Assembly: GCA_002898295.1 (NCBI GenBank)
Contig: BEHX01000004.1
Location: forward strand, 1-64,000
Reading direction: 5' to 3'
Length of the DNA: 64,000 nt
DNA from: a bacterium HR21
Lineage (GTDB): Bacteria; Bacteroidota; Ignavibacteria; Kapaibacteriales; HRBIN21
The notes under the pieces were generated by a model. It was not told the DNA's origin, did no database searches, and saw nothing but the letters and a program-made list of their open reading frames with translations. Positions 6,168 to 35,965 of the stretch are shown piece after piece. The translations under genes and the position numbers were made by a program. The number at the start of each line of letters is the position of its first letter. Within the stretch, counting starts at the first letter, position 1.

Positions 6168-6182
6168 CCGCGTCAGCCAGCT

Positions 6183-7064
6183 ATGGCAACCCTGCGGGAC
6201 ATTCGGCGGCGTATTCAGGCGGTTCGCAATACGGCGAAAATCACTGCCGCCATGCGGATGGTCTCCGCTGCCAAACTGCGCCGTGCCCAGGAAGCAATCT
6301 GGGCTGCGCGACCCTATGCCCGCAAGCTCGCGGAAATTCTCTGGCATCTGGCAGCCACAACCCAGGATTTCGTTCACCCTTTCTTCCAAGTCCGGTCGGA
6401 CATCCGTCGTATCGCCCTCGTGGTGGTGACAGCTGACCGCGGACTGTGCGGCAGCTTCAACAACAACGTCCTCCGCGCCGCCGTCCAGCGCCTGGAGGAT
6501 ATCCACCGGAGCTTCCCCGGCGCTACCGTGGAGATCTTCGCCATCGGACGCCGCGGACTGGCGTTTTTCCGTAAGCGCAACCGAGAGCCGATTGCTTACG
6601 CCCATCCCACCGCCTTCTCACCTTTACGCTACGACACCGCTCAAGAACTGAGCCACGTGCTCATCGACGCCTACCTTGCCGGACGGTACGATCGCGTGGA
6701 AGCCATCTACAACGAATTCCGCTCCGTCCTGCGGCAGGAAGTCCGCCACGAAACCCTGCTCCCGATTGTCCCACCGACACCCGCTCACCATCCCCGCACG
6801 GAGTACATCTACGAGCCCTCGCAAGCAGAAATTCTCACGGCACTCCTTCCGCTATCGGTCCAGACCCAACTATGGCGAATTCTGCTGGACTCCAACACTG
6901 CCGAGCACGCTGCCCGCATGCTCGCAATGGAGAACGCCACCACCAACGCCCGGGAGCTCATCCGCTACCTGCAGCTGCAGTACAACAAGGAGCGGCAGGC
7001 AGCAATCACGAAGGAGATGGTCGAAATCACAAGCGGAGCCGAAGCTCTCCGCTCGGAGGGATAG
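6183..7064 (+). CDS. atpG: F1Fo ATP synthase subunit gamma
   Basis: This 293-residue protein opens with RDIRRRIQAVRNTAKITAAM and AAKLRRAQ, the N-terminal rotor helix of gamma. The middle holds TADRGLCGSFNNN, the most conserved family motif. The C-terminus has MENATTNA and EITSGAEAL, the second rotor helix. It is the last ATP synthase gene here; beta and epsilon are absent and presumably lie elsewhere as atpDC, an arrangement known in Bacteroidota and Chlorobi relatives. Confidence 0.97.
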   Translation: MATLRDIRRRIQAVRNTAKITAAMRMVSAAKLRRAQEAIWAARPYARKLAEILWHLAATTQDFVHPFFQVRSDIRRIALVVVTADRGLCGSFNNNVLRAAVQRLEDIHRSFPGATVEIFAIGRRGLAFFRKRNREPIAYAHPTAFSPLRYDTAQELSHVLIDAYLAGRYDRVEAIYNEFRSVLRQEVRHETLLPIVPPTPAHHPRTEYIYEPSQAEILTALLPLSVQTQLWRILLDSNTAEHAARMLAMENATTNARELIRYLQLQYNKERQAAITKEMVEITSGAEALRSEG

Positions 7065-7088
7065 TCCCAGCTCTCGAGAGACCTCTCC

Positions 7089-9254
7089 ATGACATGGGTG
7101 CCAGCACCTGGAAGTAGCCCCCTCCTGGACGTCCGCCCGCTTGTGGAACCACGCTCGATCGCCGTCATCGGAGCATCACGCCAGCCACACAGTGTCGGCT
7201 GGCTCTTGCTGGACAACTTGCTCACAAGCGGGTACACTGGCGTGGTCTATCCGGTCAATCCCCACGCTCACGCTGTCCGTGGCATCCGGGCATACCCCAG
7301 CATTGAGGCTGTGCCCGAAGTTGTTGATTTGGCACTCATCGCTGTGCCGGCACCTTTCGTGGCGGAGGTGTTGGAGGCATGCGGACGCCGCGGGGTCCGC
7401 GCTGCCATTGTCATCAGTGCCGGGTTCAAGGAAATCGGTCCTGAAGGTGCTGCCCGAGAGGCTCGCCTCCGGGAGATTGCTCACCGCTTCGGTATCGTGC
7501 TGCTCGGACCTAACTGCCTGGGAGTAATGAATACCGACCCTGCCATCCTGCTCAACGCCACCTTCGGGCAAGCAATGGCACAGCCCGGGAACATCGGCTT
7601 CATCAGCCAGAGTGGGGCTCTCTGTGCCGCTGTGTTGGACTATACCCGCGCGCAGAACATCGGCTTGAGCAAGGTCATCAGTCTGGGCAATAAAGCCGGG
7701 GCAACCGAGGTAGACTTCCTCGCCTATCTCTGGCAAGACCCGCAAACACGGGTTATCTTGCTCTACATCGAGGAGCTCTCCGATGGGCGCACTTTCCTGG
7801 AATACGCCCACCGCATTACCAGCGACCCAGACAACCCGAAGCCGATTCTGGCACTGAAAGCTGGGCGCACCAGTGCCGGGGCTCGCGCCGTTGCCTCGCA
7901 CACGGGCTCGCTTGCCGGAAGCGATGAGGTCTACCAAGCGCTCTTCAAGCAAGCAGGTGTGCTGCGCGTCGAGACTGTTGAGGATCTCTTCGAGTATGCC
8001 ACCGCGTTCGCCAGCCAGCCGCTACCAGGAGGTTCCCGCGTGGCTATCGTGACAAACGCTGGCGGTCCGGGTATTATGGCAGCCGATACTTGCATCCAGC
8101 ACGGACTCGACGTGCCCCCGCTTCCTGAGCCAGACCGCTTCCGCCAGCGCTGCCAGCTGCCTGCCCACGCGGGACTCAGTAACCCGATTGACCTCATCGC
8201 CGATGCCCGCTCTGAGCGTTACGCCTGTGTACTCGATGCGCTGCTCCAAGACCCTACTTTCGATGCCCTGTTGGTGCTCTTTGTTCCGATCCCCACAGCG
8301 GACACGGACGCCATTGCGCAAACCATTATCGAGGCGGCGCGTCGCCGTCTGAAGCCCATCGTTACCTGCTTCATGGGCGTTGTTGACATCAGTCCCGTCA
8401 AAGCAGCCCTGCGGGCAGCTGGGGTACCGTGCTACGACTTCCCCGAAGATGCTGCTCGGGCACTTGCAGCGATGGTACGCTTCCACCGCTGGCGCATCCG
8501 CCCAGTGACAGGATACCGCACCTTTACCGCCGACCGGGAGAAAGCCTCCGCTCTGCTCCAGAGGTCTGCCGCGAACCGTCACGGCTTCATCCCCGAGGAC
8601 ATCGCCTTCCGAGTGCTGGAAGCCTACGGCTTTCCGTTGCTCCCGTGGCAGGCTGCCCGAACACCGCAGGAAGCAGCCGAGGCTGCCTGTGCGATCGGCT
8701 TCCCCGTTGCGCTCAAGGTGCTCTCCCCTGACATCGTGCACAAATTCGACATTGGTGGGGTACTCTTGCACCTGGATTCCCCAGAGGCTGTTCGCCGGGG
8801 CTTTGAGCAGATCCAGCATGCCGTTGCCCAGCACGCTCCGGAAGCAGATTTCCAGGGGGTTATCGTGCAGAAAATGGGCGCCCGCGGACACGAACTGATT
8901 CTCGGCGTCAAGCGAGATGTACACTTCGGACCAATCATCATGGCTGGTCTGGGGGGTATCTACGTGGAAGTCTTCCGCGACGTTGCTTTCCGTATTGCCC
9001 CGCTGCGGGAACGGAGTGCCTATTTGATGCTGGAGGAAACCCGCGTCTCCGCCCTCCTGCACGGAGTTCGCGGACAGCCCGCCGCAGACATTGATGCTGT
9101 AGCCGAATGCCTTCTGCGCCTCTCCCAGCTCGCCCTGGAACAGCCTCTGGTGGAAGAGCTCGATATCAACCCCCTGCTGGTCTACCCACGGGGCAATGGG
9201 GCAGTGGTTGTGGACGTCCGTATCGCCGTCCGACAATCTGAGCCTGCCGCGTGA
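7089..9254 (+). CDS. ADP-forming acetate/acyl-CoA ligase, fused alpha-beta subunits
   Basis: The protein has 721 residues. The N-terminal half is a CoA-binding domain (AVIGASRQPHSVG near residue 26; GPNCLGVMN; ISQSGAL) followed by a ligase domain. In this the ASHTGSLAG segment carries the probable phosphohistidine, near residue 271. The C-terminal part (about 490-721) is an ATP-grasp domain with IVQKMGARGHELILGVKRD and a DINPLLV ending. This alpha-beta fusion converts acyl-CoA, ADP and phosphate to acid, CoA and ATP, typical of archaea and some anaerobic or thermophilic bacteria. It lies 24 bases after atpG and overlaps radA by four bases. Protein acyl-CoA ligases share the fold, so the substrate is not certain. 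Confidence 0.8.
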   Translation: MTWVPAPGSSPLLDVRPLVEPRSIAVIGASRQPHSVGWLLLDNLLTSGYTGVVYPVNPHAHAVRGIRAYPSIEAVPEVVDLALIAVPAPFVAEVLEACGRRGVRAAIVISAGFKEIGPEGAAREARLREIAHRFGIVLLGPNCLGVMNTDPAILLNATFGQAMAQPGNIGFISQSGALCAAVLDYTRAQNIGLSKVISLGNKAGATEVDFLAYLWQDPQTRVILLYIEELSDGRTFLEYAHRITSDPDNPKPILALKAGRTSAGARAVASHTGSLAGSDEVYQALFKQAGVLRVETVEDLFEYATAFASQPLPGGSRVAIVTNAGGPGIMAADTCIQHGLDVPPLPEPDRFRQRCQLPAHAGLSNPIDLIADARSERYACVLDALLQDPTFDALLVLFVPIPTADTDAIAQTIIEAARRRLKPIVTCFMGVVDISPVKAALRAAGVPCYDFPEDAARALAAMVRFHRWRIRPVTGYRTFTADREKASALLQRSAANRHGFIPEDIAFRVLEAYGFPLLPWQAARTPQEAAEAACAIGFPVALKVLSPDIVHKFDIGGVLLHLDSPEAVRRGFEQIQHAVAQHAPEADFQGVIVQKMGARGHELILGVKRDVHFGPIIMAGLGGIYVEVFRDVAFRIAPLRERSAYLMLEETRVSALLHGVRGQPAADIDAVAECLLRLSQLALEQPLVEELDINPLLVYPRGNGAVVVDVRIAVRQSEPAA

Positions 9255-10603
9255 AGGCGCAGACAGTGTACATCTGCCAGAACTGCGGAGCGACCTCCGC
9301 CCGCTGGACCGGGCGCTGTCCTGTTTGTGGTCAGTGGGACACGTTCGTTGAGGAGCGTCGCGAGCGCGCTGGGGACCGCACCCAGTACCGTTCAACACCA
9401 GCCCAGCCTCTGCCTCTCTCAGCTGTTGGCACACACCCGCTGGAGCGCCTCTCCACAGGGATCGGCGAGCTCGACCGCGTAACCGGGGGCGGCTTCGTGC
9501 CCGGCTCGCTCGTCCTCGTTGCAGGTGACCCAGGGGTTGGGAAATCAACACTGCTGCTGCAGGTCTGCGCCGCGCTCGGCTCTGTGCAATCGCTCTACAT
9601 TTCGGGCGAGGAGTCCTTAGAACAGCTCCGTCTGCGGGCAGAACGCATTCGCCCGTCACCCAGCACCCTTCTGGTGCTTGCAGAAACAGAACTGGAGGCG
9701 GTGTGCACCGCAATCACGCAGAGTACGGCAGCAGTTGTGGTCATTGACTCCGTGCAGACCCTCTACAGCCCCGACCTAGAGTCGCCTCCCGGCTCTGTGG
9801 CACAGGTACGGGAAGCCGCTACTCGGCTTCAGAAACTGGCAAAGCAGCGCGGGACCGTTATCATCCTCATCGGGCACGTCACCAAAGAGGGGCTTATCGC
9901 CGGTCCGAAAGTGCTCGAACACATTGTGGACACCGTCTTGCAGCTGGAGGGCGAAGTCCCGTATGCGTATCGCATTCTCCGGGCACTCAAGAACCGCTTC
10001 GGTCCGACACACGAGCTAGGCTTTTTCGAGATGACCGCCACCGGGCTACGGGAGCTCCCGAATCCATCGGCGCTGTTCGTGAGCCGGACTTCCGCCGGGG
10101 AGTCTGGTGTTGCTATCGCCGCCGTTCTGGAGGGAACCCGTCCCCTGCTGGTCGAGGTACAAGCGCTGGTGACACCGAGCGCGTATGCGGTGCCGCAGCG
10201 TACCATGACGGGCTACGACTCCCGACGACTGCAGATGATTATGGCAGTGCTGGAACGCCGGCTCGGGATCGGTCTTCGGCAGTATGACTTGTTTGCAAAC
10301 ATCGTCGGCGGGCTGCGCCTGGACGATCCTGCCGTTGATGCTGCCGTTGCGCTCGCCATCGTGAGCTCCTATCGGGAACATCCTCTGCCAGCCGATACCG
10401 CACTGTTTGGCGAGCTCGGGCTGACGGGAGAGCTGCGCCCTGTCCGGCTGCCTGAGCTTCGCGTCAACGAAGCACGCCGGCTCGGTATCCGACGCCTTCT
10501 CCTGCCGAAAGCGAACGCCGATGCCGTTGCCGAGGTTGCCGAGACACTCGAACTCATCCCCGTCGATCGCCTCTCGCTCGCGTTGGCGCACCTCTTCCCA
10601 TAG
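9251..10603 (+). CDS. radA: DNA repair protein RadA (Sms)
   Basis: At 450 residues and starting from GTG inside the previous stop, this shows every RadA hallmark. There is an N-terminal C4 zinc finger (CQNCG and CPVCG), a Walker A motif GDPGVGKST near residues 92-100, a KNRFG motif, and a C-terminal Lon-protease-like domain without protease residues. RadA is a branch-migrating helicase that processes recombination intermediates. It is followed by a sigma factor gene 25 bases downstream. Confidence 0.96.
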   Translation: MKAQTVYICQNCGATSARWTGRCPVCGQWDTFVEERRERAGDRTQYRSTPAQPLPLSAVGTHPLERLSTGIGELDRVTGGGFVPGSLVLVAGDPGVGKSTLLLQVCAALGSVQSLYISGEESLEQLRLRAERIRPSPSTLLVLAETELEAVCTAITQSTAAVVVIDSVQTLYSPDLESPPGSVAQVREAATRLQKLAKQRGTVIILIGHVTKEGLIAGPKVLEHIVDTVLQLEGEVPYAYRILRALKNRFGPTHELGFFEMTATGLRELPNPSALFVSRTSAGESGVAIAAVLEGTRPLLVEVQALVTPSAYAVPQRTMTGYDSRRLQMIMAVLERRLGIGLRQYDLFANIVGGLRLDDPAVDAAVALAIVSSYREHPLPADTALFGELGLTGELRPVRLPELRVNEARRLGIRRLLLPKANADAVAEVAETLELIPVDRLSLALAHLFP

Positions 10604-10628
10604 CTGTCCCATAACAACCGGAGGAGTT

Positions 10629-11270
10629 ATGCCCCTTCGTGCCGCGGAATTGAAAAGCCTGGCAGACGCCGATGACGAACAGTTGATGGCACTGTTCCAG
10701 AACGAAAACTCCGAGGCTGCCTACACGGTGCTGGTCCGCCGGTACAAATCCCCGATCGTGAACTTTCTCTACCGCTTCGTGGGCAACTATGACGACGCCC
10801 TTGATTTAGCACAGGAAACGTTTCTGCGCCTCTACAAGTACAAGCACACGTATGAGCCTACGCAACGCTTCTCAACATGGCTCTATACAATTGCCACCAA
10901 TGTCGCACGAACCTTCTACCGGCAGCGCCGTCGCCTCGCCGAGCTTCCCTTCTCCTCACTCCGGCGCTCGGAAGAAGAAGAGGAAGCCGAGTGGGAAATC
11001 CCCGACACGAGCTACTTGCCCGATACGCGAGTAGACTCCGACTATATCGCCCAGCGAATCCAGCAAGCTCTCATGCAACTACCGCCCGTCTTCCGCGAGG
11101 CAGTTATCCTGCGGGACATCATGGAGCTCTCGTACGAAGAGATTGCCGAAGCCACGCAGACCGAGCTCGGGACCGTCAAGTCCCGTATCAACCGTGCTCG
11201 CCGGCGCCTGCAGGAGCTGCTGCGCGATCTTTACGAGGAATTGTACGGCAGAGTCCCTGACCAGCCATGA
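10629..11270 (+). CDS. ECF-type RNA polymerase sigma factor (sigma-70 family)
   Basis: From ATG 10629, behind a textbook GGAGGAG ribosome site, 213 residues are encoded. Region 2 (about residues 35-100) holds DDALDLAQETFLRLYKY and FSTWLYTIATNVA, the core-binding and -10 recognition helices. Region 4 (about 145-200) holds LPPVFREAVILRDIMELSYE and GTVKSRINRARRRL, the helix-turn-helix. The two-domain layout defines ECF factors. The downstream membrane protein, joined by an ATGA overlap, is a likely anti-sigma factor, so activity is probably controlled by release from the membrane. The stimulus is unknown. Confidence 0.92.
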   Translation: MPLRAAELKSLADADDEQLMALFQNENSEAAYTVLVRRYKSPIVNFLYRFVGNYDDALDLAQETFLRLYKYKHTYEPTQRFSTWLYTIATNVARTFYRQRRRLAELPFSSLRRSEEEEEAEWEIPDTSYLPDTRVDSDYIAQRIQQALMQLPPVFREAVILRDIMELSYEEIAEATQTELGTVKSRINRARRRLQELLRDLYEELYGRVPDQP

Positions 11271-22832: not shown

Positions 22833-23032
22833 TACTCCAGTGGCTCGATGGGATACCCGTTGCCGGAAATCGTCCGGCGGCGCCGTCGCAGCAGTGCTGC
22901 CACAAGCGGCGGGGCAAACACCAACACGAGCAACACAATGCCCGTAAGCCAGTACACCACTACTGCCAGCACCACCCCTGCCAGAAGCAGCAGCAGGGAA
23001 ATACCCCAGACGGAGCGGTCAAACCCCCGCAT
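22832..23032 (-). CDS. Small two-helix membrane protein, unknown
   Basis: A 66-residue product read from ATG 23032 (a TTG at 23041 would add three). It holds about 40 hydrophobic residues that probably form two membrane helices, followed by an RRRRR run and a polar tail. It overlaps both neighbours: the RsmF-like gene's last bases upstream and the dtd start downstream. The tight coupling suggests it is really translated. No family recognised. Confidence 0.6.
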   Translation of the reverse strand: MRGFDRSVWGISLLLLLAGVVLAVVVYWLTGIVLLVLVFAPPLVAALLRRRRRTISGNGYPIEPLE

Positions 23033-24446
23033 GGTCGGCAATCATCGTGTGGAGACTCCGTGGGATCTGTGAATGGAGCTGCCCACGCGCGTAGAGCCCG
23101 CAGCCCAGCTCGAACTCTCGATACCGCACGTGGACAAAGCCCGGCTCGACATCGGTCAGCACGTTCTGCGATTGCCCGCTGACGAAGCGAATTGCCGCCT
23201 GCTCCTCAGGCAATTCAACCACATTGCGCCGGATAGATTTCCCGAAAAGCTGCAGTGCAAAGGTCTTCGGCTTGACGTGCTCTCGCTTGTAGCTCAGCAG
23301 GGCAATTCCCACACTCTCCGGTGGGAGCTCTACAGGCGGTTCCACCTCCGGGATTGCCATCCACAGCTTCTCCCGACCCCGCATCCAGTAGCGGTAGGCA
23401 GCGAAGAGCTCCGGCTCCAGCCCGAAACGCTCGCAGAGCCAGGCAATCCCGTCCAAACGCTGAGCCGGCTGCAGCGGCGCTCGCCCCGGGCAGGAGACCT
23501 TCCCCAGCGGGGGCATTGGGACATCGGTCCGCCGAATCCGGGCAAGGAAAAAGCCCCCGGTGTTATTCAAATGGGGCCAGAAGCGACATGCGTTGACTAC
23601 ATCGCTGCGCAGCTCCTTGCCCATCCACTGCCGGATACCCGGCGCCGAGCGCAAGCCGGCAACGGAAAACGGCTCTACCACCCCGTAGTCTCCCAGGACA
23701 GCATCGAGCACCAGCTCATTCTCTTCCGGGGCAAAGGTACACGTGCTGTAGACGACTATCCCGCCAGGCTTGACCAGCTGCAGCGCACGGCGCAGGAGCG
23801 CTCGCTGGAGAGCTGAGCAGTACTGCCGAAATTCTCTGTGGACAGGGCGCCAGCCCTGCTTCATCTTCCGCACTGTGCCCTCACCCGTACAGGGGGCATC
23901 GACCAGGACCCGATCCCAGACGCCTTCCGGCAGCGGAAGCCGCCGTCCGTCGCCCCAGGTGACAACGACATTGAGCAACCCCAGGCGATCAACCGTCGTA
24001 CGTAGCCCGGAGAGGCGCTCCATTGCTGCCTCGTTCGCCACAACCATGCCGTTCGGGCGAACCCGGAGGGCAATCTGTGCTGTCTTGCCGCCCGGCGCGG
24101 CACACAAGTCCACAATCCGCTCCCCCGGCTGCGGGTCCAACGCTACCACCGCTGCCATAGCGATTTCCTCCTGCACGTAGTACCACCCCGCCACGAACGG
24201 CAGCGTGGCACCGGGACGCTCCAGTCCCGGCACCCGGAATGCCCCTGGATACCACGAAATCGGCTCCAGCAGGATGCCGTGTTCCCGGCAGTAGGCGTGG
24301 AATGCCTCTAGCGTCGTCTTGAGCGGATTGACCCAGAGGCACGGCTGCAGCGGCTCGAACACACACTGCCAAAATGCCTGTGGTTCCTCGATGAGCGGCA
24401 TATACCGAGCAAAGGCTTCCTCAAGCCGTCGGCGCTTGTTCTCCAT
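23019..24446 (-). CDS. NOL1/NOP2/Sun-family RNA cytosine-C5 methyltransferase (RsmF-like)
   Basis: Reading from ATG 24446 gives 475 residues. The SAM site is VDLCAAPGGKTAQIA. The two catalytic cysteines are in DAPCTGEG and in YSTCTFAPEENE, as in m5C methyltransferases. A C-terminal extension of roughly 160 residues resembles the PUA-like part of RsmF, which modifies 16S rRNA C1407. An in-frame ATG at 24491 lies at the divergent -7 box and lacks a ribosome site, so the later start is preferred. It heads a four-gene minus-strand run. Confidence 0.87.
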   Translation of the reverse strand: MENKRRRLEEAFARYMPLIEEPQAFWQCVFEPLQPCLWVNPLKTTLEAFHAYCREHGILLEPISWYPGAFRVPGLERPGATLPFVAGWYYVQEEIAMAAVVALDPQPGERIVDLCAAPGGKTAQIALRVRPNGMVVANEAAMERLSGLRTTVDRLGLLNVVVTWGDGRRLPLPEGVWDRVLVDAPCTGEGTVRKMKQGWRPVHREFRQYCSALQRALLRRALQLVKPGGIVVYSTCTFAPEENELVLDAVLGDYGVVEPFSVAGLRSAPGIRQWMGKELRSDVVNACRFWPHLNNTGGFFLARIRRTDVPMPPLGKVSCPGRAPLQPAQRLDGIAWLCERFGLEPELFAAYRYWMRGREKLWMAIPEVEPPVELPPESVGIALLSYKREHVKPKTFALQLFGKSIRRNVVELPEEQAAIRFVSGQSQNVLTDVEPGFVHVRYREFELGCGLYARGQLHSQIPRSLHTMIADHAGV

Positions 24447-24490
24447 CGCGGTGTGCACCCCTGCAGGGAGCCAATGACGTGAAGCCGGCA

Positions 24491-24498
24491 TAAATTTG
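24491..24498 (+). promoter_or_regulatory. Putative -7 box upstream of the lptF/G-gldL-gldM-like genes
   Basis: TAAATTTG matches TAnnTTTG and lies 30 bases before the ATG at 24529, in the 82-base divergent gap next to the RsmF-like gene. No TTG at -33. Confidence 0.5.
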
Positions 24499-24528: not shown

Positions 24529-25605
24529 ATGCGGCTCCTGACGCTCTACGTCTTGCGCCACATTGCTGCCATCTTCGCCTTCAGCATCGCCGCACTCTGC
24601 ACCATCTTCATCGTGGTCAACCTCATCGAGAACCTGGACGACTTCCTGGACACGCACACCCCGGCAGCAGTTATTGCCGAGTACTACGTGCTGTTCCTGC
24701 CGGAGATGCTCAAATACCTTGCCCCTGTTGCTACACTGCTGGCAATTCTGTTCGGTATCGGACGCCTGACACAACGGCACGAAGTCACCGCCATGAAGGC
24801 GTCCGGGATGGGACTGCGACAGCTGGCTGCCCCAGTTCTGGTGAGCACCGCGATACTGAGCTCCCTGCAGCTGCTCTTCAACGGCTGGCTTGTCCCGAAA
24901 GCCAACCAACGGAAAATAGCAATTGAGCGGCGCTACCTTCAGCGTTCTCCCAGCGGCGCCTTCTTCAACCTCGCCTTCCGGGACAGCCCCACGCGATTGG
25001 TGCTCCTCCAGCGCTATGAGCCGGAAGAGCAGCGAGCCTACGGGGTTGCCATCGAAGAGTATACAGGGCAGCTTGCTCCACGCTGGAGCCATCGGCTTGA
25101 AGCACCCGTGATGGCATGGGATAGTCTCCTCCAGCGCTGGCATCTCCGCGAGGTGACGGTGCGTTCCTATGGACCCCTGCCCACCGTCCACACACTCCCG
25201 GAGACCACGCTGGCGCTGCGTCTCCGCCACGAGACTATCGTCCGCCTCCAACGGAGCCCTGCAGAGATGACCCTGCCGGAACTGCACCGCTACGTCGAAG
25301 AACTCGCCGCCGGCGGGCAGGATGTGCGCACTCTGCAGGTTACCTACTTCAGCGAATACGCCCTGCCCTTCGCCCACTTCATCGTAGCTCTGCTCGCCAT
25401 CCCGCTGGCATCCATGTATCGGCGGGCAGGGTTGGCAGCACAGTTCGGGACTGCAGCGGTCTTGACCTTTACCTACCTGGTCTTTGCCCGCATTAGCCAG
25501 ACCCTCGGGGTAGTGTTGATGATGCCGCCGCTCTTGGCAGGCTGGTTTGCTAACCTCGTATTCTTCCTCATCGGCTGCGGAATCCTATGGCGCACACGAA
25601 CCTGA
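24529..25605 (+). CDS. LptF/LptG-family LPS export permease
   Basis: The protein has 358 residues read from ATG 24529. Three N-terminal membrane helices enclose the family motif around PVATLLAILFGIGRL. A loop with EVTAMKASGMG follows, then a periplasmic beta-jellyroll region (about residues 110-260) and three C-terminal helices. LptF and LptG pair with the LptB ATPase to extract LPS from the inner membrane. Only one permease is found in this window. The 3' end overlaps the GldL-like gene by 19 bases, so the LPS permease and the motor-like genes are one operon. Confidence 0.88.
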   Translation: MRLLTLYVLRHIAAIFAFSIAALCTIFIVVNLIENLDDFLDTHTPAAVIAEYYVLFLPEMLKYLAPVATLLAILFGIGRLTQRHEVTAMKASGMGLRQLAAPVLVSTAILSSLQLLFNGWLVPKANQRKIAIERRYLQRSPSGAFFNLAFRDSPTRLVLLQRYEPEEQRAYGVAIEEYTGQLAPRWSHRLEAPVMAWDSLLQRWHLREVTVRSYGPLPTVHTLPETTLALRLRHETIVRLQRSPAEMTLPELHRYVEELAAGGQDVRTLQVTYFSEYALPFAHFIVALLAIPLASMYRRAGLAAQFGTAAVLTFTYLVFARISQTLGVVLMMPPLLAGWFANLVFFLIGCGILWRTRT

Positions 25606-26348
25606 ACCTCCACGAACAGCTCTCCGCCTATGCCAAGTCGCTCCTGCAGAGCAGTGGGAAACTGTCGACGCTCTGGAAAACCCTCCAGGTTGGGATCCGG
25701 GGGCTGACAGAGCAAGGTGCCGAGCAGTTCCCAGGACAGGGCGTCTGGCGCGGCATCCTGGTGTGGTTCGAGGCTGTTGTGGCTCCCTACTACGCTGGCT
25801 GGATCAGCGCATTGGTCTATGCCGGTGCAGCACTCCTCCTACTCCTGATCGGTCTTCATCGCTTCACCGACGGGGTTGGTCCAGAAGCGATCCTCGCTGC
25901 ACTCTTCCTGGAAGCCTCCCTCCTCGTGCTGCTGGCACTGACGCTCGGTGCTGCCCCAGCAACACGGACCAGCGCGGTGGAAGAGGATGAGCTGCGAAGC
26001 ATTGCCGACGAGATTGCCGAGATTGCCGGTGATGCTGGGCGTATCCTGGACTCCCACCGCGAGTTGCTCACCCAGTGGCACGCGGTAGGCGAGCGGCAGA
26101 GAAAGCTCCTGGAGCAGATCAGCACCCTGCTCAACACCCTGGCTACCCTGCCGCTGCCGAGCACGAAACTGGCAGAAACCATAGAGCGGCTGAATCAGAA
26201 CCTCGATACCACGACCGCCATGCTGCAGCGCTTCCGAGAGGAGCTCCAGCAGTGGCAGCGAGAACAGCTCCAGGAGCTTGTCCGGCAAGAATTGGCACGC
26301 CTCCTCAGCAACAGAGTCACTCCTCCAGCGCCGCCAGAGCAGTCATGA
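25587..26348 (+). CDS. GldL-like inner-membrane motor protein
   Basis: The 253-residue product has a soluble N-terminus of about 60 residues. Two membrane helices follow (about 71-90 and 97-118), then a long Glu/Gln/Leu coiled coil to the end. The helix pair reads YAGAALLLLLIGLHRF and LEASLLVLLALTLG. This resembles the T9SS motor protein GldL, including the glutamate in the middle of helix 2 that GldL uses for proton flow. Known GldL is shorter before helix 1. The next gene encodes a GldM-like protein, with an ATGA overlap, the usual gldL-gldM order. This is motif-level recognition, not a database hit. Confidence 0.6.
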   Translation: MAHTNLNLHEQLSAYAKSLLQSSGKLSTLWKTLQVGIRGLTEQGAEQFPGQGVWRGILVWFEAVVAPYYAGWISALVYAGAALLLLLIGLHRFTDGVGPEAILAALFLEASLLVLLALTLGAAPATRTSAVEEDELRSIADEIAEIAGDAGRILDSHRELLTQWHAVGERQRKLLEQISTLLNTLATLPLPSTKLAETIERLNQNLDTTTAMLQRFREELQQWQREQLQELVRQELARLLSNRVTPPAPPEQS

Positions 26349-27748
26349 GCCGGCACCCAAAGCGAGTGGAGCTCTACTTCGTGCTCTACCTCGTTGCCCT
26401 CCTGCTGCTCCTCTTCGAGCCGCACGCCCCCGAAAGTCAGACACAGCCGCCCCCATTGCTTCCTTCGGAAACAGCGGTGGAATTCTTCCCCGATCCATCG
26501 GAGCCCCGCTGTATCGTTGCCGATAGCGCCGGACATCGAGTGCTCCAGGTCTACGACTCGGTCATCTCGCTCCGGTATTCCCGTCCACTGCAGCACGTGA
26601 CGGTCAGCCTTCAGCTGGACTCTGCCGGCTCTCTGCTCTGGAGCTCGGAGCAGCCCCGTCTGCAAGCTCCCATCACGGTCGAGCATACTCCCGAAGAACG
26701 CCGCTTCCAGCTGCGCTGGCGCTTCCGCTGGTGGGACACCGAACTCTCTCCAGGGGTCCACGAATACCGGCTCCGTATGCGCATCGACTACACTCTGGGG
26801 ACGGTGCGCCATGTCGAACGTCTCTCGCTGCCCCTGCGTGTCAGTCTCTTCCTACTGCCCGCCGTTGAGCCTGGTCAACCCCCGGCGTCCTTGCCTCCAT
26901 CCGTGCCAGCGGCGTCGCCACTGCCTCCGCTGCGCCTCTTTGTCCCGGACACGCTGCTCGAAGTTCCCCCATTTGGGCAGTGGTCGCTGGAGCTTACAGT
27001 GTTCGGGGTGGAGGATGTCCGCCGTGAATTGGATTCCATCTTCGTCCAGCCTGCTGGTGCTGCCTGGGTCAAGCCGCAGAATGGCTCCACGCTGCTAGTC
27101 CAAGGGCGGGCTCCCCAAGAGGGCACGCAGCGGGTGCGCGTGACCGTGATCCGGCATGCAGATAGGCAGACAGCAGCAGCGACGCTCACCGCCGTTGTGC
27201 AGCCACTTCCCCGCCCCGACGTTCCGGAGGAGCTCTACCCCGAACGAGAGTACCGGCTCGACCCCCGATTACGCTTCTCCGGACAGGAGACGCGAGCAGA
27301 GCTCACCGATGGACAGCGGCTCCTTGCCTCCTCTCCGGGGACTCCGCTGGTAGTGCGACCAACCCTCTCCGACACCGGGAAGGTGCTCGTCCTGCGCCGT
27401 TTCCTGAACGATCAGCTGCTCGATGAACTCCGGCTCCCCATCCGGGACTTCCCTGCCCCGGAACTCCTCAGTTTACGCCCTGAAGGCACTGCGGTGAAGG
27501 TCCGCACCCGCTGCTTCGGCACCGTCGGAGGCAGCCCGAATGAGTGTCGGTGCGAGTTGCTCTCCCCTGCCGGGAAAGTTCGGGAGCTGCGTGGCGACCT
27601 GCGCCGTATCCTGCACGAACGCTACGGATTTGTCATCGAGCAGAGCTTCCTCCTCGAAGGGGTCAGTCCCTCGGCGCCGGTGACGCTGCTTCTCCGCGAC
27701 CGCGCCGGACGCCAGCTCCGCTGGAGCGGACACGTCCCGCCGCGTTAG
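26345..27748 (+). CDS. GldM-like single-pass periplasmic protein (shorter paralogue)
   Basis: At 467 residues it has a short basic N-terminus, one membrane helix starting YFVLYLVALLLLLFE (residues 11-25), and then an entirely beta-rich periplasmic part. A Pro-rich linker sits near residues 180-205. The YFVLYL helix start and acidic residue after the helix are shared with the 731-residue protein at 58325. The layout (helix, then tandem beta domains) and position behind a GldL-like gene fit GldM/PorM. It is shorter than the other copy. The stop overlaps the convergent murD stop (TTAG at 27745-27748). Confidence 0.55.
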   Translation: MSRHPKRVELYFVLYLVALLLLLFEPHAPESQTQPPPLLPSETAVEFFPDPSEPRCIVADSAGHRVLQVYDSVISLRYSRPLQHVTVSLQLDSAGSLLWSSEQPRLQAPITVEHTPEERRFQLRWRFRWWDTELSPGVHEYRLRMRIDYTLGTVRHVERLSLPLRVSLFLLPAVEPGQPPASLPPSVPAASPLPPLRLFVPDTLLEVPPFGQWSLELTVFGVEDVRRELDSIFVQPAGAAWVKPQNGSTLLVQGRAPQEGTQRVRVTVIRHADRQTAAATLTAVVQPLPRPDVPEELYPEREYRLDPRLRFSGQETRAELTDGQRLLASSPGTPLVVRPTLSDTGKVLVLRRFLNDQLLDELRLPIRDFPAPELLSLRPEGTAVKVRTRCFGTVGGSPNECRCELLSPAGKVRELRGDLRRILHERYGFVIEQSFLLEGVSPSAPVTLLLRDRAGRQLRWSGHVPPR

Positions 27749-29097
27749 ACGGGCATCTCCTCTGGCAAGCGCCATACTGCTTCTCGGAAAACCTCGCCCC
27801 GGTGCTCGAAGTTGAGGAACATGTCGAAGGACTTGCACGCGGGGGAGAACAGCACCACATCACCAGGTTCGGCGTAGAGCGCTGCCTGGTAGACCGCTTC
27901 CTCCAGCGAGGCTGCCCGCACACAGTGGACCATCGTGCAGAAGTGGGCGCAGAGTGCTTCGGCTTCCTCCCCGATGGCAATCAGCAGGCGGACTCTTTCT
28001 CGGACGAGTTCGTCGAGCAGGCTGTAGTCGTTGCCTTCGCCCCGTCCCCCGGCAATCCAGATGATGGGCTGCGTGTAGCTGGAAAGAGCGTACCAGGCAG
28101 CGTTGACGTTGGTGGCTTTCGAGTCATTGATGAACTCCACTCCCCGCCAGCGGCGAACTAGCTCCAGCCGATGCTCCACACCGGCAAAGAGCATGAGGCT
28201 ATCGCGGATATCCTCATTGCGGATTTCCAGCGCCCGAGCTGCTACCGCCGCTGCCAGGGAATTGTAGAGGTTGTGGACCCCCGGCAGACGCACCTCATCT
28301 GTGCGCATGAGGACTTCCTCTCTATGCTGCCAGACCAGCACAATATCCGTGCCTCGGACATAGGCGCCCTGCTGCACGGGTCGCCGTCCGAAATAGGCAC
28401 ACTGTGCTCGCGTCCGGTGCTCGGCAGCACGAGCATCCGGATCATCGGCGTTCAAAATTAGAAAATCCTCCGGGCGTTGCTGCGCTGTGATCCGCCATTT
28501 TGCTCGTCGATAGGCTTCATAGCTGCCGTGGTAGTCCAAATGGTCCGGCGTGATGTTGAGCAGCACAGCAAGGTCAGGGCGGAACTCACGGACGAACTCC
28601 AGTTGGAAGCTACTCACCTCCAGCACCACGACGGCATCGGGATGGAGTCCATCGAGGAGCAGAGCAGAAAGCGGCGTCCCGATGTTCCCGCCCACCGCCA
28701 CTGGCTTGCCTGCCCGCTGGAGGAGAAACCCCAGGAGCGCTACCGTGGTGGTCTTCCCATTGGTCCCCGTTACCGCAATGACGCGCTGCCCGGCAAGGAA
28801 ACGCCACGCAAATTCCAGCTCCGACACCACAGGAAGCCCTCGCCGGAGTGCCTCCTGCACTACGGGAGCAGAGGGCGGAATGCCCGGCGAGATGACTACC
28901 TCTCGCGCGTGGAATACCCGCTCGGTATGTCCTCCGAATTCCGCCGGGATGCCCAGCCGCGCAAATTCCTCGGACACTTCCCGACAGGCGGCTTCCGGCT
29001 TCTGTTCCGAGACAAAGACCGATAGCCCCTTCTGCCGCGCCAGCCGCGCTGCCGCTCGACCACTCCGCGCCGCACCGAGGACAACGACATCAATCAT
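27745..29097 (-). CDS. murD: UDP-N-acetylmuramoyl-L-alanine--D-glutamate ligase
   Basis: From ATG 29097 the protein has 450 residues. An N-terminal Rossmann domain (VVVLGAARSGRAAARLA) precedes the Mur ligase ATP site VTGTNGKTTTVALLG. The LLNITPDHLDYHG motif with its catalytic histidine follows, then NDSKATNVNAAWYAL and WIAGGRGEGNDYS. It adds D-glutamate to the peptidoglycan precursor in the cytoplasm. No other dcw-cluster gene is nearby, so murD is isolated here. It overlaps the upstream EEP-family gene by 8 bases. Confidence 0.97.
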   Translation of the reverse strand: MIDVVVLGAARSGRAAARLARQKGLSVFVSEQKPEAACREVSEEFARLGIPAEFGGHTERVFHAREVVISPGIPPSAPVVQEALRRGLPVVSELEFAWRFLAGQRVIAVTGTNGKTTTVALLGFLLQRAGKPVAVGGNIGTPLSALLLDGLHPDAVVVLEVSSFQLEFVREFRPDLAVLLNITPDHLDYHGSYEAYRRAKWRITAQQRPEDFLILNADDPDARAAEHRTRAQCAYFGRRPVQQGAYVRGTDIVLVWQHREEVLMRTDEVRLPGVHNLYNSLAAAVAARALEIRNEDIRDSLMLFAGVEHRLELVRRWRGVEFINDSKATNVNAAWYALSSYTQPIIWIAGGRGEGNDYSLLDELVRERVRLLIAIGEEAEALCAHFCTMVHCVRAASLEEAVYQAALYAEPGDVVLFSPACKSFDMFLNFEHRGEVFREAVWRLPEEMPV

Positions 29098-29998
29098 TAT
29101 CCGGGGCTGCGATATCGAACTGTGCAACAACTGGACAATGGTCAGAGAGGCGCTCCGCCTGTGGGAACGGATACCGAGCGTAGAAATTCACCACATGGGC
29201 ACTCCCGGCAATGTAGCGCTGCCGGAAGCTGCGGCTGACAACGAGATGGTCGATCGTATAGGCACGCTCGTAGCGGCAGCTCCGTAGGTCCGCGGTGAGA
29301 AATTCCACCCCCGGGTATTCGAGCAGCGGTGTCAACGTCGGGTATTGGCGCCGGCGCGGTGTGTCGTTGAAGTCTCCCACAATCACCACATCCTGTTCCG
29401 GACCGGCAGCCAGAAGGGAATCCACCCAGCGGACAAGCTGATGGGCTTGCCGGAGACGGAGCTGTCGCGACAGCTCCCTTAGCTCATTGGTGCTGTCATA
29501 GCGGGAAGTTGACTTCAAGTGCACCACCATCAGGTAGAAATCCGCATTTCCCGCCCGGCAGTATGCCAGCAGCCCGGGACGAGTCCGTCCAGGCTGGACG
29601 ATGAGCGGTGTGTACTCTCCCAGAATCCGCACCACAAGCGAGCGATCACGGCGATAGAGGAGCCCAACATTCTGCTGTCCCCCGAGGGAGCCCACGGCAC
29701 CGGTAAACTCAGGCAGGTACCGGAGCAACCGCTGGAGCGCACGCTCGTTTTCCACCTCCTGCAGTCCGAGGATGTCCACCCCAGTCTGACGGATGAGCTC
29801 TGCCAGCTGCTGGAGCTCTTCCTCAGTGCGCGGATTGCGATCCCTCAGCCCATCACCGAGCCACTCAATGTTGAAGGTGCCCAGCGTGAGCACCGACAGC
29901 GGCTGTGACTGCTGCCGCACCGGCTGGCATGCCGTAACTGCCAGCCCGAAGAACACCAGGCAGGAGAAGCGTGTCAGCGCACCCATTGCTTTCCTCAT
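29090..29998 (-). CDS. Endonuclease/exonuclease/phosphatase (EEP)-family lipoprotein
   Basis: The 302-residue protein has a signal peptide ending in the lipobox VTAC (Cys near residue 24). The EEP fold follows: GTFNIEWLGDG, LGLQEVEN with the metal-binding glutamate, VVHLKS, VIVGDFNDTP, and a C-terminal SDHCPVVAQF with the catalytic Asp-His. It probably cleaves phosphodiesters of nucleic acids or lipids outside the cytoplasm. It overlaps the upstream proline dehydrogenase gene by 4 bases. Confidence 0.88.
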   Translation of the reverse strand: MRKAMGALTRFSCLVFFGLAVTACQPVRQQSQPLSVLTLGTFNIEWLGDGLRDRNPRTEEELQQLAELIRQTGVDILGLQEVENERALQRLLRYLPEFTGAVGSLGGQQNVGLLYRRDRSLVVRILGEYTPLIVQPGRTRPGLLAYCRAGNADFYLMVVHLKSTSRYDSTNELRELSRQLRLRQAHQLVRWVDSLLAAGPEQDVVIVGDFNDTPRRRQYPTLTPLLEYPGVEFLTADLRSCRYERAYTIDHLVVSRSFRQRYIAGSAHVVNFYARYPFPQAERLSDHCPVVAQFDIAAPDND

Positions 29999-30921: not shown

Positions 30922-33393
30922 CTATCGTACAAGTCCAAGCGGGAGGATCCACCGTCCCTGGGGAGCATCCAGCTGCACAAGGTACATCCCCTGGGCAAGC
31001 CCTTCAGGGACGGGGAGCCAGAGGCTCTGCTCGCCCTCCGGAAGCACATCCCAGGAGCGCTCCGCCAGGGTCTGCCCCAGAACCGTGAGCAAGCGCACGT
31101 GGACCCCATGGAGCGGCTCCCCGAGCCGGAGCCGAAGTCGGAGAGTCTTCCCCTCAAGCTCTGCCCCGTAGAGCTGCACTGCCGGGGAGTGCCCCACCGT
31201 GCCTGCCCCGGATGCCTGCCCTTCGATCACGAAGGGTGCGGCACTCTGGACCTGCTGCTCAGGATTTGCACGGTTCTGCAGCCGAATGAGAGCCTGCTCT
31301 GTCGGCGTATCGGGGACCTCCCACTCGTAGCTCTGCGCCGTTGCATCATAGCTGAGCCGAATAGTGCGCCAGCTCTGCCCGCCATCGGTGGAGTAGTCAA
31401 TCCGGATGCGGCTCACAAAGTCAGAATACCACCGAATCTGCTGGCGGCTGCCTACGGTCCAGCGCTCTCCTCCGTTAGGAACGAGCAGCTGCAAGACCGG
31501 TGCCCCAATGGCAAAGGGCTCGCTCTGGTCGGCAACCGTGGGATCCTGCGTGTCCTCAATCCGTATGACAGCCTGCGTGGTTGCCAGCTGGGGTACCCGC
31601 CACGCGTACGAGACACCGGTCACGCCCCGGGCAAGTGTATCCCAGTGGCTTCCCCCATCAGCGGAGAAGAGCACGGTAACAGCCTCGACCAAGGACTTCG
31701 ACCACTCAATGGAGACCTGCTCGCCGTAGCCGTAGCGCTCCCCACCCCGCGGTGTCCCTAAAGTCAGCGAGGGGATAGCGATGGCAAAGCTTGCCATCGT
31801 TGTATCGCCAACCGTGGGATCCGTGACGTCGACGACCCGCAGCCAGACTCTCGGGATAGACTCCCGGGGCAATGTCCAGCTATAGCTCCGCTGGATGGCG
31901 GGAACACCCGTCGCAATGGGGATCCAGCTCCGCATCGTGTCGGTTGAGTACTCCAGTGACACCAGCTGCACCTGCCAGGAGGTCCAGCGAATTTCCAGCG
32001 GCTCCCCGCCGCGCAGCTGCTGATTTCCAACCGGGTACTGCAGCAGGAGCATCGGTGCTGGAGGAGGCTGTAAGCAGGTCTCCGCTCGGCTGGAGCGGAT
32101 CACCGCCGCCACCCGAGGTCGGAAGGTCAACGCTACCGAGGGTTGAACCAAGTGGCAGTAGCTCATGATGCTGCCCCCATCCCAGGATGGACGGGGGCGA
32201 ATCGGAGAAGCGTAACATGCATCCCCTATCGGGGGGTTGCCGTCTCGGGTAACGCACGTATCCAGCGGCGGACTCCAGTAACAGGCGTGCGTGTGTGGCG
32301 CGCCGAAGACATGCCCGATCTCGTGCGCGACCACGTGCACATCCCAAGTATAGCTCAGCGTCGGGTACTGGTACGTTCCCCGAATGCCACTGACACTGTA
32401 GGCAGAGTTGGTCTGGCACAGCGTGTTGAGCCGGGCAATACCGCCGACTTCCGTCGCCCCCGGAGCAGTCATCACATGGACAAGGTCTCGGGACACATTG
32501 CGCCGGTTCTGGTTCCAATAGGTGCTCACTTCGCTGAGGAGGGCACCGATATCGCTGTCGTTCTGGTACGGGTCCTCTTCCCCTTCCGGCGGTGCCATCC
32601 AAATCAGGACCCAGGGCAGGGTGAAGGTCACATTGACCTCGTCCTCATAGATGCGGCTGACCATCGCGAAGAGCGAGGCAACGTAGGCAGCCAGCCGATC
32701 GTAGTCCCGGTTGAAGCGCAGATAAAGGGAAGAGAGCACCTCGACAGCAACTCGTGCCTGCCGGAGCGTGATTGCCTGCGGCTGCGGGACCGGGGGTTCC
32801 TTCGCTGTCCGGAGCCACTCCCAGTAGTCGGGCGTCTGCTCAACGGCGCAGATCCAGTGCGTCAGCTCTGCAGCTGCCGCTGTACTGAGGATATGTTCCA
32901 CGGATTCGCCCCACCGTTGTCCGGTCGGGACAAGCCCGACAGCTCGCCCATCACCCCGACGGAGTACACCGTAGAGCTCGCCACCGACAATGCTCAGGAC
33001 AACACGCGAGGCTGGTTCTCCGACAACTTCACCGTCGAAGACCATCTGGACAATACCCGGTGCTGCCTGGAGAAGCTCCGGCTCTCCCTGCCGGGCAGGG
33101 CGGAGCCCCCGCCACCACTGGGTTTGCCCGTCCACCACCGAGCGTGCTCGGCGCACCCGTATGCTACCTACCTCCGTTGCGGAGAGCGGAAAATCCCGAA
33201 GCTCAAACTCCCCAAGCGGCAGCCGAGTAAGCCCCTGGAGGGCGGACTCCCGTACCCAGTAGAATCCCGCTGTCTGCGGTGCCAAAACAGTTGCCGCCGG
33301 CTGCAGGAAGAGCCGCGCCGAGAGCGATTCCTGCGCAACCGCGCTCCCGCCAACCACCGCGACAACTACTGCGTACCATGCCAGACGAGCCAT
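30922..33393 (-). CDS. Secreted metzincin metalloprotease with T9SS-like sorting domain
   Basis: The protein has 823 residues and a signal peptide (ending AVAQ) at the ATG 33393. A pro-region precedes a reprolysin-like catalytic domain with HEIGHVFGAPH, the HExxHxxGxxH zinc site, and a Met-turn SIMSYCH. Three repeats of about 90 residues follow, each with a [S/T]xDxGxSW-like strand (YSTDTMRSW, FSADGGSHW, YSTDGGQSW). The last 85 residues are beta-rich with LTVLGQTL, GMYLVQL and a short LGLVR tail, as in type A T9SS C-terminal sorting domains. It is therefore probably exported by type IX secretion and cell-attached or released. Confidence 0.85.
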   Translation of the reverse strand: MARLAWYAVVVAVVGGSAVAQESLSARLFLQPAATVLAPQTAGFYWVRESALQGLTRLPLGEFELRDFPLSATEVGSIRVRRARSVVDGQTQWWRGLRPARQGEPELLQAAPGIVQMVFDGEVVGEPASRVVLSIVGGELYGVLRRGDGRAVGLVPTGQRWGESVEHILSTAAAAELTHWICAVEQTPDYWEWLRTAKEPPVPQPQAITLRQARVAVEVLSSLYLRFNRDYDRLAAYVASLFAMVSRIYEDEVNVTFTLPWVLIWMAPPEGEEDPYQNDSDIGALLSEVSTYWNQNRRNVSRDLVHVMTAPGATEVGGIARLNTLCQTNSAYSVSGIRGTYQYPTLSYTWDVHVVAHEIGHVFGAPHTHACYWSPPLDTCVTRDGNPPIGDACYASPIRPRPSWDGGSIMSYCHLVQPSVALTFRPRVAAVIRSSRAETCLQPPPAPMLLLQYPVGNQQLRGGEPLEIRWTSWQVQLVSLEYSTDTMRSWIPIATGVPAIQRSYSWTLPRESIPRVWLRVVDVTDPTVGDTTMASFAIAIPSLTLGTPRGGERYGYGEQVSIEWSKSLVEAVTVLFSADGGSHWDTLARGVTGVSYAWRVPQLATTQAVIRIEDTQDPTVADQSEPFAIGAPVLQLLVPNGGERWTVGSRQQIRWYSDFVSRIRIDYSTDGGQSWRTIRLSYDATAQSYEWEVPDTPTEQALIRLQNRANPEQQVQSAAPFVIEGQASGAGTVGHSPAVQLYGAELEGKTLRLRLRLGEPLHGVHVRLLTVLGQTLAERSWDVLPEGEQSLWLPVPEGLAQGMYLVQLDAPQGRWILPLGLVR

Positions 33394-33423
33394 CTCGGCA
33401 CTCTCTTCGATGAGACTTGGGCA

Positions 33424-33431
33424 CGAAATTA
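33424..33431 (-). promoter_or_regulatory. Putative -7 box upstream of the metalloprotease gene
   Basis: TAATTTCG on the minus strand, 30 bases before the ATG at 33393. It is one base from TAnnTTTG and is followed by GTGCC, as the rpoN box is. Confidence 0.35.
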
Positions 33432-33541
33432 CGAATCTGCCTTGCCGGACGGGCGCCGACGCTGCCCCCCGAGAGACGCCTTCCCATAAACGCGGCGCGC
33501 TGAAGCGTCTTATACGTGCCAGCAGATGGGTCAAGACTGCC

Positions 33542-35965
33542 ATGGCACGCCGCCGAACCTCTTCGAGCTCTCCCCGTCTGAAGCAGACGGGCACCGCGAC
33601 TCCGTCCCGGAAAGCCCGGTCGGAGACAGCTCCCACTGCGGACTCAGGGGAACTGCGCCATTTGGTCGTGGTCGAATCCCCTGCCAAAGCCCGGACAATC
33701 CAGCGCTACCTTGGCTCGGGCTACCGTGTTGAGGCATCGCTCGGGCATATCAAGGACCTGCCGGAACACACCCTCGGGGTAGACATCCACAACGGCTTCC
33801 AGCCCCATTACCACCTACTCCCTGGGCGGCGGCGGCTTGTGCAGCAGCTCAAACAGCTGGCTCAGCAGGCAGAAGATGTCCTGTTGGCAACCGATCCTGA
33901 TCGCGAAGGCGAAGCCATTGCCTGGCACATCGCCGAGGAGCTCCGTCCGCAGAATCCTAATATCCGCCGCGTCCTGTTCCACGAAATCACTCCGAGCGGC
34001 ATCCGCTCAGGGATTGCTCAGCCACGCGAGCTCAATCAGGCGCTGGTCCTCTCGCAGCAGGCGCGTCGTGTCATGGATCGCCTCATCGGCTACGAGGTCT
34101 CGCCCTGGCTCAGCCAGGTGCTGGCCACCGAAGTCGCGCACGCCCTCTCTGCCGGGCGTGTGCAGTCGGTCGCACTCCGGCTCATCTGCGAGCGCGAGGA
34201 GGCAATCGAGCGCTTCGAGCCCATCCCCTTCTGGAAGATCCTTGCCCGTTTCCGCACGCCAGCCGGGGAGGAGTTCACGGCAGAACTGGTCGAATACGAC
34301 GGACTCCCGGTTCGGTATCCCGAAGGCTCTGCCACAGAGCTCCCGGAGACAGATTCTGAGCGCCGTCACTATCTCCGCTCGGCAGAGGAAGCCGAACGCC
34401 TCATGGAGGCTCTCCGGGAGTGCTCCGAGTGGCGCATCGCGCAGCTGCGCAAGCGACGTCAGAAACGCACGCCACCACCGCCATTTACCACAAGCCTCCT
34501 CCAGCAAGACGCTTCCCGCCGGCTAGGGCTCTCCCCACAGCAGACCATGCGCCTGGCTCAGCAACTCTACGAAGGAGTTCTGCTCGGCAAGGAGGGACCC
34601 GTCGGGCTGATCACCTATATGCGGACAGATTCCATGCGCGTCAGCCACGAAGCCCAACAAGCCGCTCGGACAACCATTGCCCACCTCTTCGGCGAGCGCT
34701 ACCTCCCGGCAGAACCCCCGCAGTACACAAGCAAATCTGCCCACATCCAGGATGCCCACGAAGCCATTCGTCCCACCCACCTGGAGTACACCCCTGAGCG
34801 TGTCCGCCCATATCTGTCCAAAGAGCTGGCAGCACTGTACGAGTTGATCTACACCCGCTTCCTCGCCTCGCAGATGGTACCAGCAGAACTGGAGAGCACC
34901 ACGGTCGTGGTTCGGAGCAACGGCTTTGCCTTCCGTGCCAGCGGCAGCGTGCTCCTCTTCGATGGCTTCCTGCGTGCATACGCCGAGCTTACCGACGAGG
35001 ACGATGCGCCCGAGGACCGCCAGAGCTTACCCGCCGGGCTGACCGAAGGTATGCCCGTTACACTGCAGGAACTTCTCCCGAGAGCCTCGCAGACGAAAGC
35101 CCCGCCGCGCTACACCGAAGCGACACTCATCAAGGAGCTCGATGAAAAAGGTATTGGGCGCCCGAGCACCTATGCCACAATTGTCAGAACGCTCTTCGAA
35201 CGCAAGTACGTCCGGCGCCAGCGCAAGTATCTGCAGCCTACCCCACTGGGACGGAAGGTCAACGAGATCTTAGTGCGGCATTTCCCCGAAATCTTCACCG
35301 TTGGCTTTACAGCCGCCATGGAAGAACAATTGGACGCCATCGCCGAGGGAGAGGCAGCCTACGAAGAGGTGTTGCACAACTTCTACCAGCCCTTCCGTCA
35401 AGCGCTCGAACGTGCCCGTCACGAGCTGGGACAGCTCTGCCCGCAGTGCAACACCCCATTGGAGGTGCACTACTCCCGACGGACCGGCAAGCGATACCTC
35501 CGCTGCCCTGCCTGTGGCACCACACAAGCATTCCCGAAGGTAACCGAGACGTCCCCACCAGTGGAGCACATTCGCTGTCCTCTGTGCAATGCTCCGATGG
35601 TCCTGCGACACGGCAAATACGGTCCCTTCTACAGCTGCTCCCGCTTCCCCGAATGCCGGGGCATTCGCCCGCTGAGCTCCGGAGTTCGCTGCCCAGAGTG
35701 CGGCGAAGGCGAACTGGTTGAGCGCCGCAGCCGGAACGGACGCCGCTTCTGGAGCTGCTCACGCTACCCGCACTGTCAGTACGCGCTCTGGCACCGCCCT
35801 ATCCCCGTCCCATGCCCCCAGTGCGGTTTCCCCCTGCTGGAAGAGCGCGGACGCTGGCACCAGGGCGAATGGCAGCCCCTATGGCATTGCCCTAAGTGCC
35901 ATCACGCCATGGAGCCGATGGAACCTGAGCTCTCCGTTGAATCCTCCGATGAACCCGAGGAATGA
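33542..35965 (+). CDS. topA: DNA topoisomerase I (type IA)
   Basis: The start is set at ATG 33542, giving 807 residues; an upstream in-frame start at 33410 would overlap the divergent promoter region. A low-complexity basic N-terminus of about 45 residues precedes the TOPRIM domain ([28 protein letters not shown]). The catalytic tyrosine is in [12 protein letters not shown]. The C-terminus has four zinc-ribbon repeats, each with two CxxC-type pairs. It relaxes negative supercoils. It leads a run with the macrodomain, Nudix-TadA, rsmI and tmk genes. Confidence 0.97.

Follow-up and report, generated by a model that had tools for sequence, protein, structure and literature searches.

We analysed a window of 64,000 nucleotides (positions 1 to 64,000 of contig BEHX01000004.1, C4 in our numbering) from the bacterium HR21, a member of the order Kapaibacteriales in the class Ignavibacteria whose genome comprises 1.83 Mb and is 95% complete. 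The subject is a forward-strand operon in which the gene for a lipopolysaccharide (LPS) export permease is followed by two genes, here called L2 and M2, whose products look like a far-diverged relative of GldL-GldM, the motor pair of the type IX secretion system (T9SS). The operon begins with lptG (24529-25605, +; ATG at 24529, stop codon ending at 25605), continues with L2 (25587-26348, +; 253 residues), identified by profile searches, HHalign and AlphaFold (AF2) modelling of the single chain, and ends with M2 (26345-27748, +; 467 residues), identified by its conserved position 3' of L2 and by the same two methods. The first two genes overlap by 19 bp and the last two by 4 bp (ATGA, the M2 start overlapping the L2 stop); the M2 start at ATG 26345 agrees with the alignment of its relatives, while the mechanically called open reading frame opens earlier, at 26075. 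Since rsmF (23019-24491, −) lies divergently 37 bp upstream and murD (27745-29130, −) converges from downstream, overlapping the end of M2, the operon consists of exactly three genes. The preliminary description of this DNA had proposed three overlapping or touching genes here, for an LptF/G-type LPS permease, a GldL-like and a GldM-like protein, and all three reading frames were found in those places.

The lptG product is an ordinary member of the LptF/LptG family of the Lpt exporter (PF03739, E=9.4e-75, 252 bits against a gathering cut-off of 27.9), with TIGR04408 (LptG) as its best equivalog model, at 200 bits and below that model's cut-off of 240. The known partners of LptF/LptG are LptB and LptC, and to our knowledge canonical lptFG operons carry no motor pair, whereas the operon in the window carries a motor-like one.

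The AF2 model of L2 (mean predicted local distance difference test score, pLDDT, 83; 89-95 across the hairpin) consists of an amphipathic pre-helix, a two-helix membrane hairpin and a cytoplasmic coiled coil, with helices at residues 53-93 and 99-122 followed by long cytoplasmic helices at 128-187 and 193-244 (the whole cytoplasmic part, residues 128-244, being encoded at 25968-26318, +). Helix 53-93 contains a conserved amphipathic lead-in (W60, E or Q at 62, mostly E at 63, and Y69). Two elements do not vary in any of the 109 relatives aligned: Gly80-Ala81-Ala82 in helix 1 (25824-25832, +), equivalent to Gly16-Ala17-Ala18 of GldL, and Glu109 in the middle of helix 2 (25911-25913, +), equivalent to Glu49 of GldL. 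Ala110 is conserved in 99 of them, forming a Glu-Ala pair, and Pro124 in 108. The distance from Gly80 to Glu109 is 29 residues in 101 of the 109, the same spacing as in 13 of 29 canonical GldL sequences; another 12 of the 29, of the Flavobacterium johnsoniae type, carry a 4-residue insertion between the GAA motif and the glutamate. L2 therefore has the two membrane helices and the strictly conserved glutamate in helix 2 that characterise GldL, as well as the trailing coiled coil that had been proposed from the sequence.

For M2 the AF2 model (mean pLDDT 88) shows a single N-terminal helix at residues 10-23 and then four beta domains at about 47-170, 197-285, 303-391 and 401-462, which corresponds to the one N-terminal helix and four periplasmic domains of GldM and bears out the earlier view of the third gene as encoding a GldM-like, single-pass, beta-rich protein. 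Within the membrane helix (26372-26413, +; motif RRxVEIYFVLYLAALxLLL) F12 and L16 are invariant in alignment A2, and E9, Y11, L14 and Y15 are each conserved in more than 90% of the sequences.

Searches of Pfam, NCBIfam and the PDB sequences placed neither L2 nor M2 in a family and returned spurious coiled-coil matches only. The GldL model TIGR03513 (cut-off 68.3 bits) had no match in the window genome, and none of the 61 genomes of the order had a protein over the cut-off of this model or of the GldM model TIGR03517 (180 bits); as controls, TIGR03513 found GldL in 36 of 148 genomes of the phylum, and Bacteroidia GldM scored 381-574 bits with TIGR03517. We then compared profiles with profiles, using alignments of canonical GldL (29 sequences) and of the N-terminal parts of GldM from Bacteroidia-type loci. 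HHalign matched L2 to GldL with E=1.4e-6 and a probability of 90%, hairpin on hairpin and Glu109 on Glu49, and M2 to GldM with E=1.7e-4, domains 2-3 of M2 being collinear with D2-D3 of GldM. As a control each target was column-shuffled 100 times in 20-column windows (GldL also in 10-column windows) and was reversed. The L2-GldL score of 49.9 compares with shuffle maxima of 29.6 (20-column) and 36.6 (10-column) and with 22.1 for the reversed target, and the M2-GldM score of 40.8 with a shuffle maximum of 21.9 and a reversed score of 19.7; in neither case did any of the 100 shuffles reach the real score. A match to both halves of one motor, in the same gene order, would be hard to get by chance. 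The resemblance to GldL and GldM that had first been suggested by eye is thus supported by both profile matches, by the glutamate of helix 2 and by the order L then M, and L2 and M2 are a real, conserved and far-diverged GldLM-type pair, a variant of a known motor.

The reference for this comparison is the T9SS and gliding motor of Bacteroidia, GldL/PorL with GldM/PorM (TIGR03513, TIGR03517; PDB 6YS8). L2 has in common with GldL/PorL the hairpin, the strictly conserved glutamate in mid-helix, the GAA motif 29 residues before it and the cytoplasmic helical tail, and M2 has in common with GldM/PorM the single pass and the four periplasmic domains. L2 differs from GldL in an N-terminal extension of about 65 residues, which places a conserved W-E helix ahead of helix 1, and in a longer helix 2. 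The loci differ too, as L2 and M2 share their operon with lptG and not with gldK or gldN, and the gldK-gldL-gldM-gldN cluster is absent from this locus.

L2 was found by profile search in all 61 genomes of the order, and the named relatives recovered with its profile, nearly all of them from metagenome-assembled genomes, belong mostly to Candidatus Kapaibacterium/Kapabacteria and Ignavibacteria. M2 is the next gene in most loci (26 M2 reading frames among 30 genome loci of the order; about 69 of 80 named loci), and with the pair conserved across the order the arrangement in the window is no product of chance. Across the class, profile A1 gave L2-type or hairpin matches in 91 of 197 genomes, and the lack of a match in the others may reflect divergence only. 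The lptG-L2-M2 triple is retained in the recovered loci of the window genus (L001-L004, L006). More widely, lptG lies directly upstream in 16 of the 30 genome loci, from seven of the ten sampled families (f1, f3, f4, f5, f6, f8, f10), and in 35 of the 80 named loci. Because the genome loci include 1.5 kb of flank only, 16 of 30 is a minimum once more distant linkage is counted. In the sampled f2, f7 and f9 no lptG was seen next to L2-M2. The linkage to LptG is therefore real but partial. Of the earlier proposal that LPS export and a motor are co-transcribed the linkage stands, but as one layout among several. As to conservation in related genomes, for which a search had been suggested, the pair is conserved across the order and the triple in the recovered loci of the window genus.

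Other neighbours have a similar flavour. In family f16 an ABC exporter lies directly upstream of L2-M2 (L207 6477-8450, L215 1452-3341), its best model being the lipid A exporter MsbA (429 bits, below the cut-off of 602), and in families f40 and f49 a GalE-like sugar epimerase precedes the pair. Together with lptG these genes hint at a link with envelope polysaccharide and prove nothing. In Porphyromonas gingivalis the T9SS cargo is attached to A-LPS, an LPS form (PMC7323717), so that an LPS-related gene nearby would fit a T9SS motor too.

Both hallmarks by which a T9SS is recognised, the SprA translocon and cargo proteins that end in sorting tails, occur in the window organism. SprA scores over cut-off in all 61 genomes of the order (E=8e-219 in the window genome). 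The window genome also encodes 27 matches to sorting tails, 14 of them over the TIGR04183 cut-off, and a protein of 1900 residues that resembles the PorU/PorU2 sortase, at E=1.7e-54 and short of the curated cut-off. Within the class SprA is near-universal (195 of 197 genomes at E<=1e-20), and its co-occurrence with L2 is therefore uninformative. Because SprA is found in 61 of 61 genomes and sorting tails are present in the window genome, yet GldL and GldM are recognised in none, the lineage has a T9SS without recognisable GldL or GldM. The preliminary description had spoken of a split-off pair, implying a canonical gldK-L-M-N set elsewhere; this does not agree with the absence of GldL and GldM over cut-off, nor with that of GldN (TIGR03523; 0 of 61 genomes, in a search without a positive control), and L2-M2 is a lineage-wide motor variant and not a fragment of gldKLMN. 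A survey that used GldL and GldM models described the T9SS as confined to Bacteroidetes (PMC4793230), and others note that the system may occur in Chlorobiota/Ignavibacteriota (PMC11285876). Separately, the window encodes at 30922-33687 (−) a reprolysin-like metalloprotease of 921 residues with immunoglobulin (Ig)-like domains, the tail of which, unmatched by the models, looks on visual inspection like a T9SS sorting domain.

The conservation of the pair and its gene order, the topology of both proteins, their remote homology, the invariant glutamate and the presence of T9SS genes are all observed. They are best accommodated if L2-M2 is an inner-membrane motor of the GldLM type (5:2 class) that is driven by protons, is distantly related to the motor of the T9SS and most likely has the T9SS as its client, a reading to which we assign a probability of roughly 60%; the 5:2 assembly, the proton drive and the client are the parts that we infer. 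In such a motor five copies of L2 would surround two M2 molecules at the level of their single membrane helices, and the inflow of protons would protonate and deprotonate Glu109 and make the helices turn or re-pack. The beta-domain shaft of M2 would then pass this motion across the periplasm to a machine in the outer membrane, most likely the T9SS, which is present throughout the lineage while standard GldL and GldM are unrecognisable. In F. johnsoniae secretion requires the strictly conserved Glu49 of GldL, which also governs the contacts between helices and the conformation of GldM (PMC8986121); by analogy protons would probably bind at Glu109, with M2 probably acting as the shaft. Glu59 of F. 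johnsoniae GldL is needed for gliding only, and because this residue is lost in L2, the analogy suggests a motor for secretion or transport and not for gliding.

Several observations weigh against this interpretation. Identity over aligned columns is 17% for L2-GldL and 11% for M2-GldM, with scores below the curated family cut-offs. In the alignment of 109 relatives L2 has no equivalent of Glu59, a Ser or Thr preceding the conserved proline, and the distance from glutamate to proline is 15 residues, compared with 11 in GldL. The first periplasmic domain of GldM is helical (D1, five helices; PMC5790014), whereas region 47-170 of M2 is all beta in the AF2 model. No M2 was detected beside L2 in about 10 of the 80 named loci (L103, L115, L134, L140 and about seven more). 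Finally the genome encodes a second GldLM-like set, described below, which is closer to SprA and PorU by context and could be the T9SS motor instead; its existence makes the client of L2-M2 less certain, so that the T9SS is the most likely role of L2-M2, though not a secured one.

This second set includes M', a GldM-like protein of 731 residues encoded outside the lptG operon (58325-60520, +; matched by profile A4 in its membrane segment with E=6e-10), which the earlier view of a single GldLM-like pair had missed. A profile made from M proteins of the class detected it in every one of ten Kapaibacterium-type genomes searched, all from the order. In 7 of 7 genomes M' is followed by two conserved, family-less neighbours that are related to each other, P1 (60462-62216, +; start codon uncertain) and P2 (62162-63643, +), which match the equivalent proteins of other class members (HHalign E=3e-13 and 4e-22, respectively). 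Both are probable outer-membrane barrels, the barrel of P1 probably being its C-terminal half. The L2 search also recovered the hairpin proteins B (about 440 residues) and, in many genomes, C (about 330 residues). In the window genome B lies just past the window, at C4:81.3-82.6 kb, and in 7 of 8 genomes inspected it is directly upstream of the PorU-like gene; in locus L041, which corresponds to C4:75.6-82.6 kb, B (440 residues) occupies 9320-10642 and the 1900-residue PorU/PorU2-like C25 protease 3585-9287. B had appeared to have a four-helix layout, and the idea that it bridges GldL and MotA was dropped, as profile comparison of B with ExbB gave no signal (E about 0.01-0.05).

The arrangement of these genes raises the possibility, which we regard as tentative and on balance unlikely, that L2-M2 is a GldLM-type motor for LPS or another envelope process, and that B, by PorU, and M', near SprA and with P1 and P2, drive the T9SS. 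The LptG linkage, extending over seven families, speaks for this, as do the MsbA-like and GalE-like genes before the pair in one and two further class families, the adjacency of B to PorU, and a genome (G050) in which M' begins about 1 kb past SprA. Against it, L2 and M2 recover GldL and GldM in profile comparisons while B and M' do not (B against GldL E=0.04, M' against GldM E=0.24, from shallow alignments); L2-M2 is contiguous with B and PorU in G010, where the order is lptG-L2-M2-B-PorU-like; three families show no lptG beside the pair; and gene order alone cannot show a client. The B/M' set is thus nearer to the T9SS by gene context and the LptG-linked L2-M2 nearer to GldLM by sequence, as far as the shallow B and M' alignments go, and this contrast is the chief source of doubt about the function. 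The fuller version of this alternative, in which Kapaibacterium-type bacteria have a pair of GldLM-type motors, with the T9SS powered by the motor near SprA and PorU and the delivery of LPS or other material to the outer membrane by the motor linked to LptG, is slightly more doubtful again.

It is improbable that both sets jointly energise the T9SS, L2-M2 and B-M' being two stator types of one machine. Such a view would suit the contiguous L2-M2-B-M' order of class families f40 and f49, to which f40 adds P1-P2-like genes (L206, L208), and the grouping of SprA, L2, M' and B in G001 and G003, both of the window genus, where all four fall within some 90 kb; but the cluster of other class members has a single L-M pair (L201, L198), and the two sets are unlinked in other Kapaibacterium families. 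We give equally little credence to a non-motor envelope scaffold, with a hairpin and coiled coil and a periplasmic Ig chain, that is GldLM-like in topology only. Foldseek searches of the PDB would fit it, with generic Ig-chain matches only for the M2 model and no match for the L2 hairpin-plus-coil model; the invariant glutamate inside the membrane does not, nor do the independent matches of both partners to GldL and GldM profiles in the same gene order.

MotAB, ExbBD and TolQR resemble the proposed motor by analogy, as ion-driven 5:2 motors. Their outer subunits have four or three helices, and the aspartate is in the inner subunit. That L2 is itself an ExbB/TolQ/MotA-family subunit was rejected as very improbable, since beyond the general class, a membrane hairpin with an ionisable residue, there is no Pfam match (PF01618), HHalign against ExbB alignments of the same order gave E about 0.5 and a score of 13, within the range of the shuffles, and PF01618 proteins exist elsewhere in the window genome (G000:C10, C5); a match to MotA/ExbB only, named beforehand as the result that would count against a GldL relationship, did not occur, and GldL was matched. 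A review likewise sees no obvious homology between GldLM and MotAB (PMC9389320).

A full-text search of the open-licence literature found no paper that describes GldLM from Kapaibacterium or Ignavibacteria. If L2-M2 is a GldLM-type motor with the T9SS as its client, a divergent, lineage-wide pair would supply the motor that is missing from a class in which SprA is near-universal and from an order in which recognisable GldL and GldM are not found. It would also provide diverse sequences for tracing the origin of GldLM relative to MotAB, which work on 5:2 motors describes as unresolved (PMC9389320, PMC12505986). If there are instead two motors, the LptG-linked one would be a motor of the GldLM class that serves something other than type IX secretion or gliding.

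Hairpin paralogue C (about 310-350 residues where examined; L044 7715-8761, L046, L049, L052) has neither a fixed neighbour nor a GldM-like partner close to it. In L206 (818-9692) and L208 (3095-8189) two GldLM-like pairs stand side by side as L2-M2-B-M', with P1-P2 also in L206. Other class families have a shorter cluster (L198, L199, L204, L210; L201, L211, L212) in which a hairpin protein of 170-255 residues and a GldM-like protein of about 200 or 446 residues are followed by P1/P2-like pairs, and this is possibly the T9SS core of those lineages.

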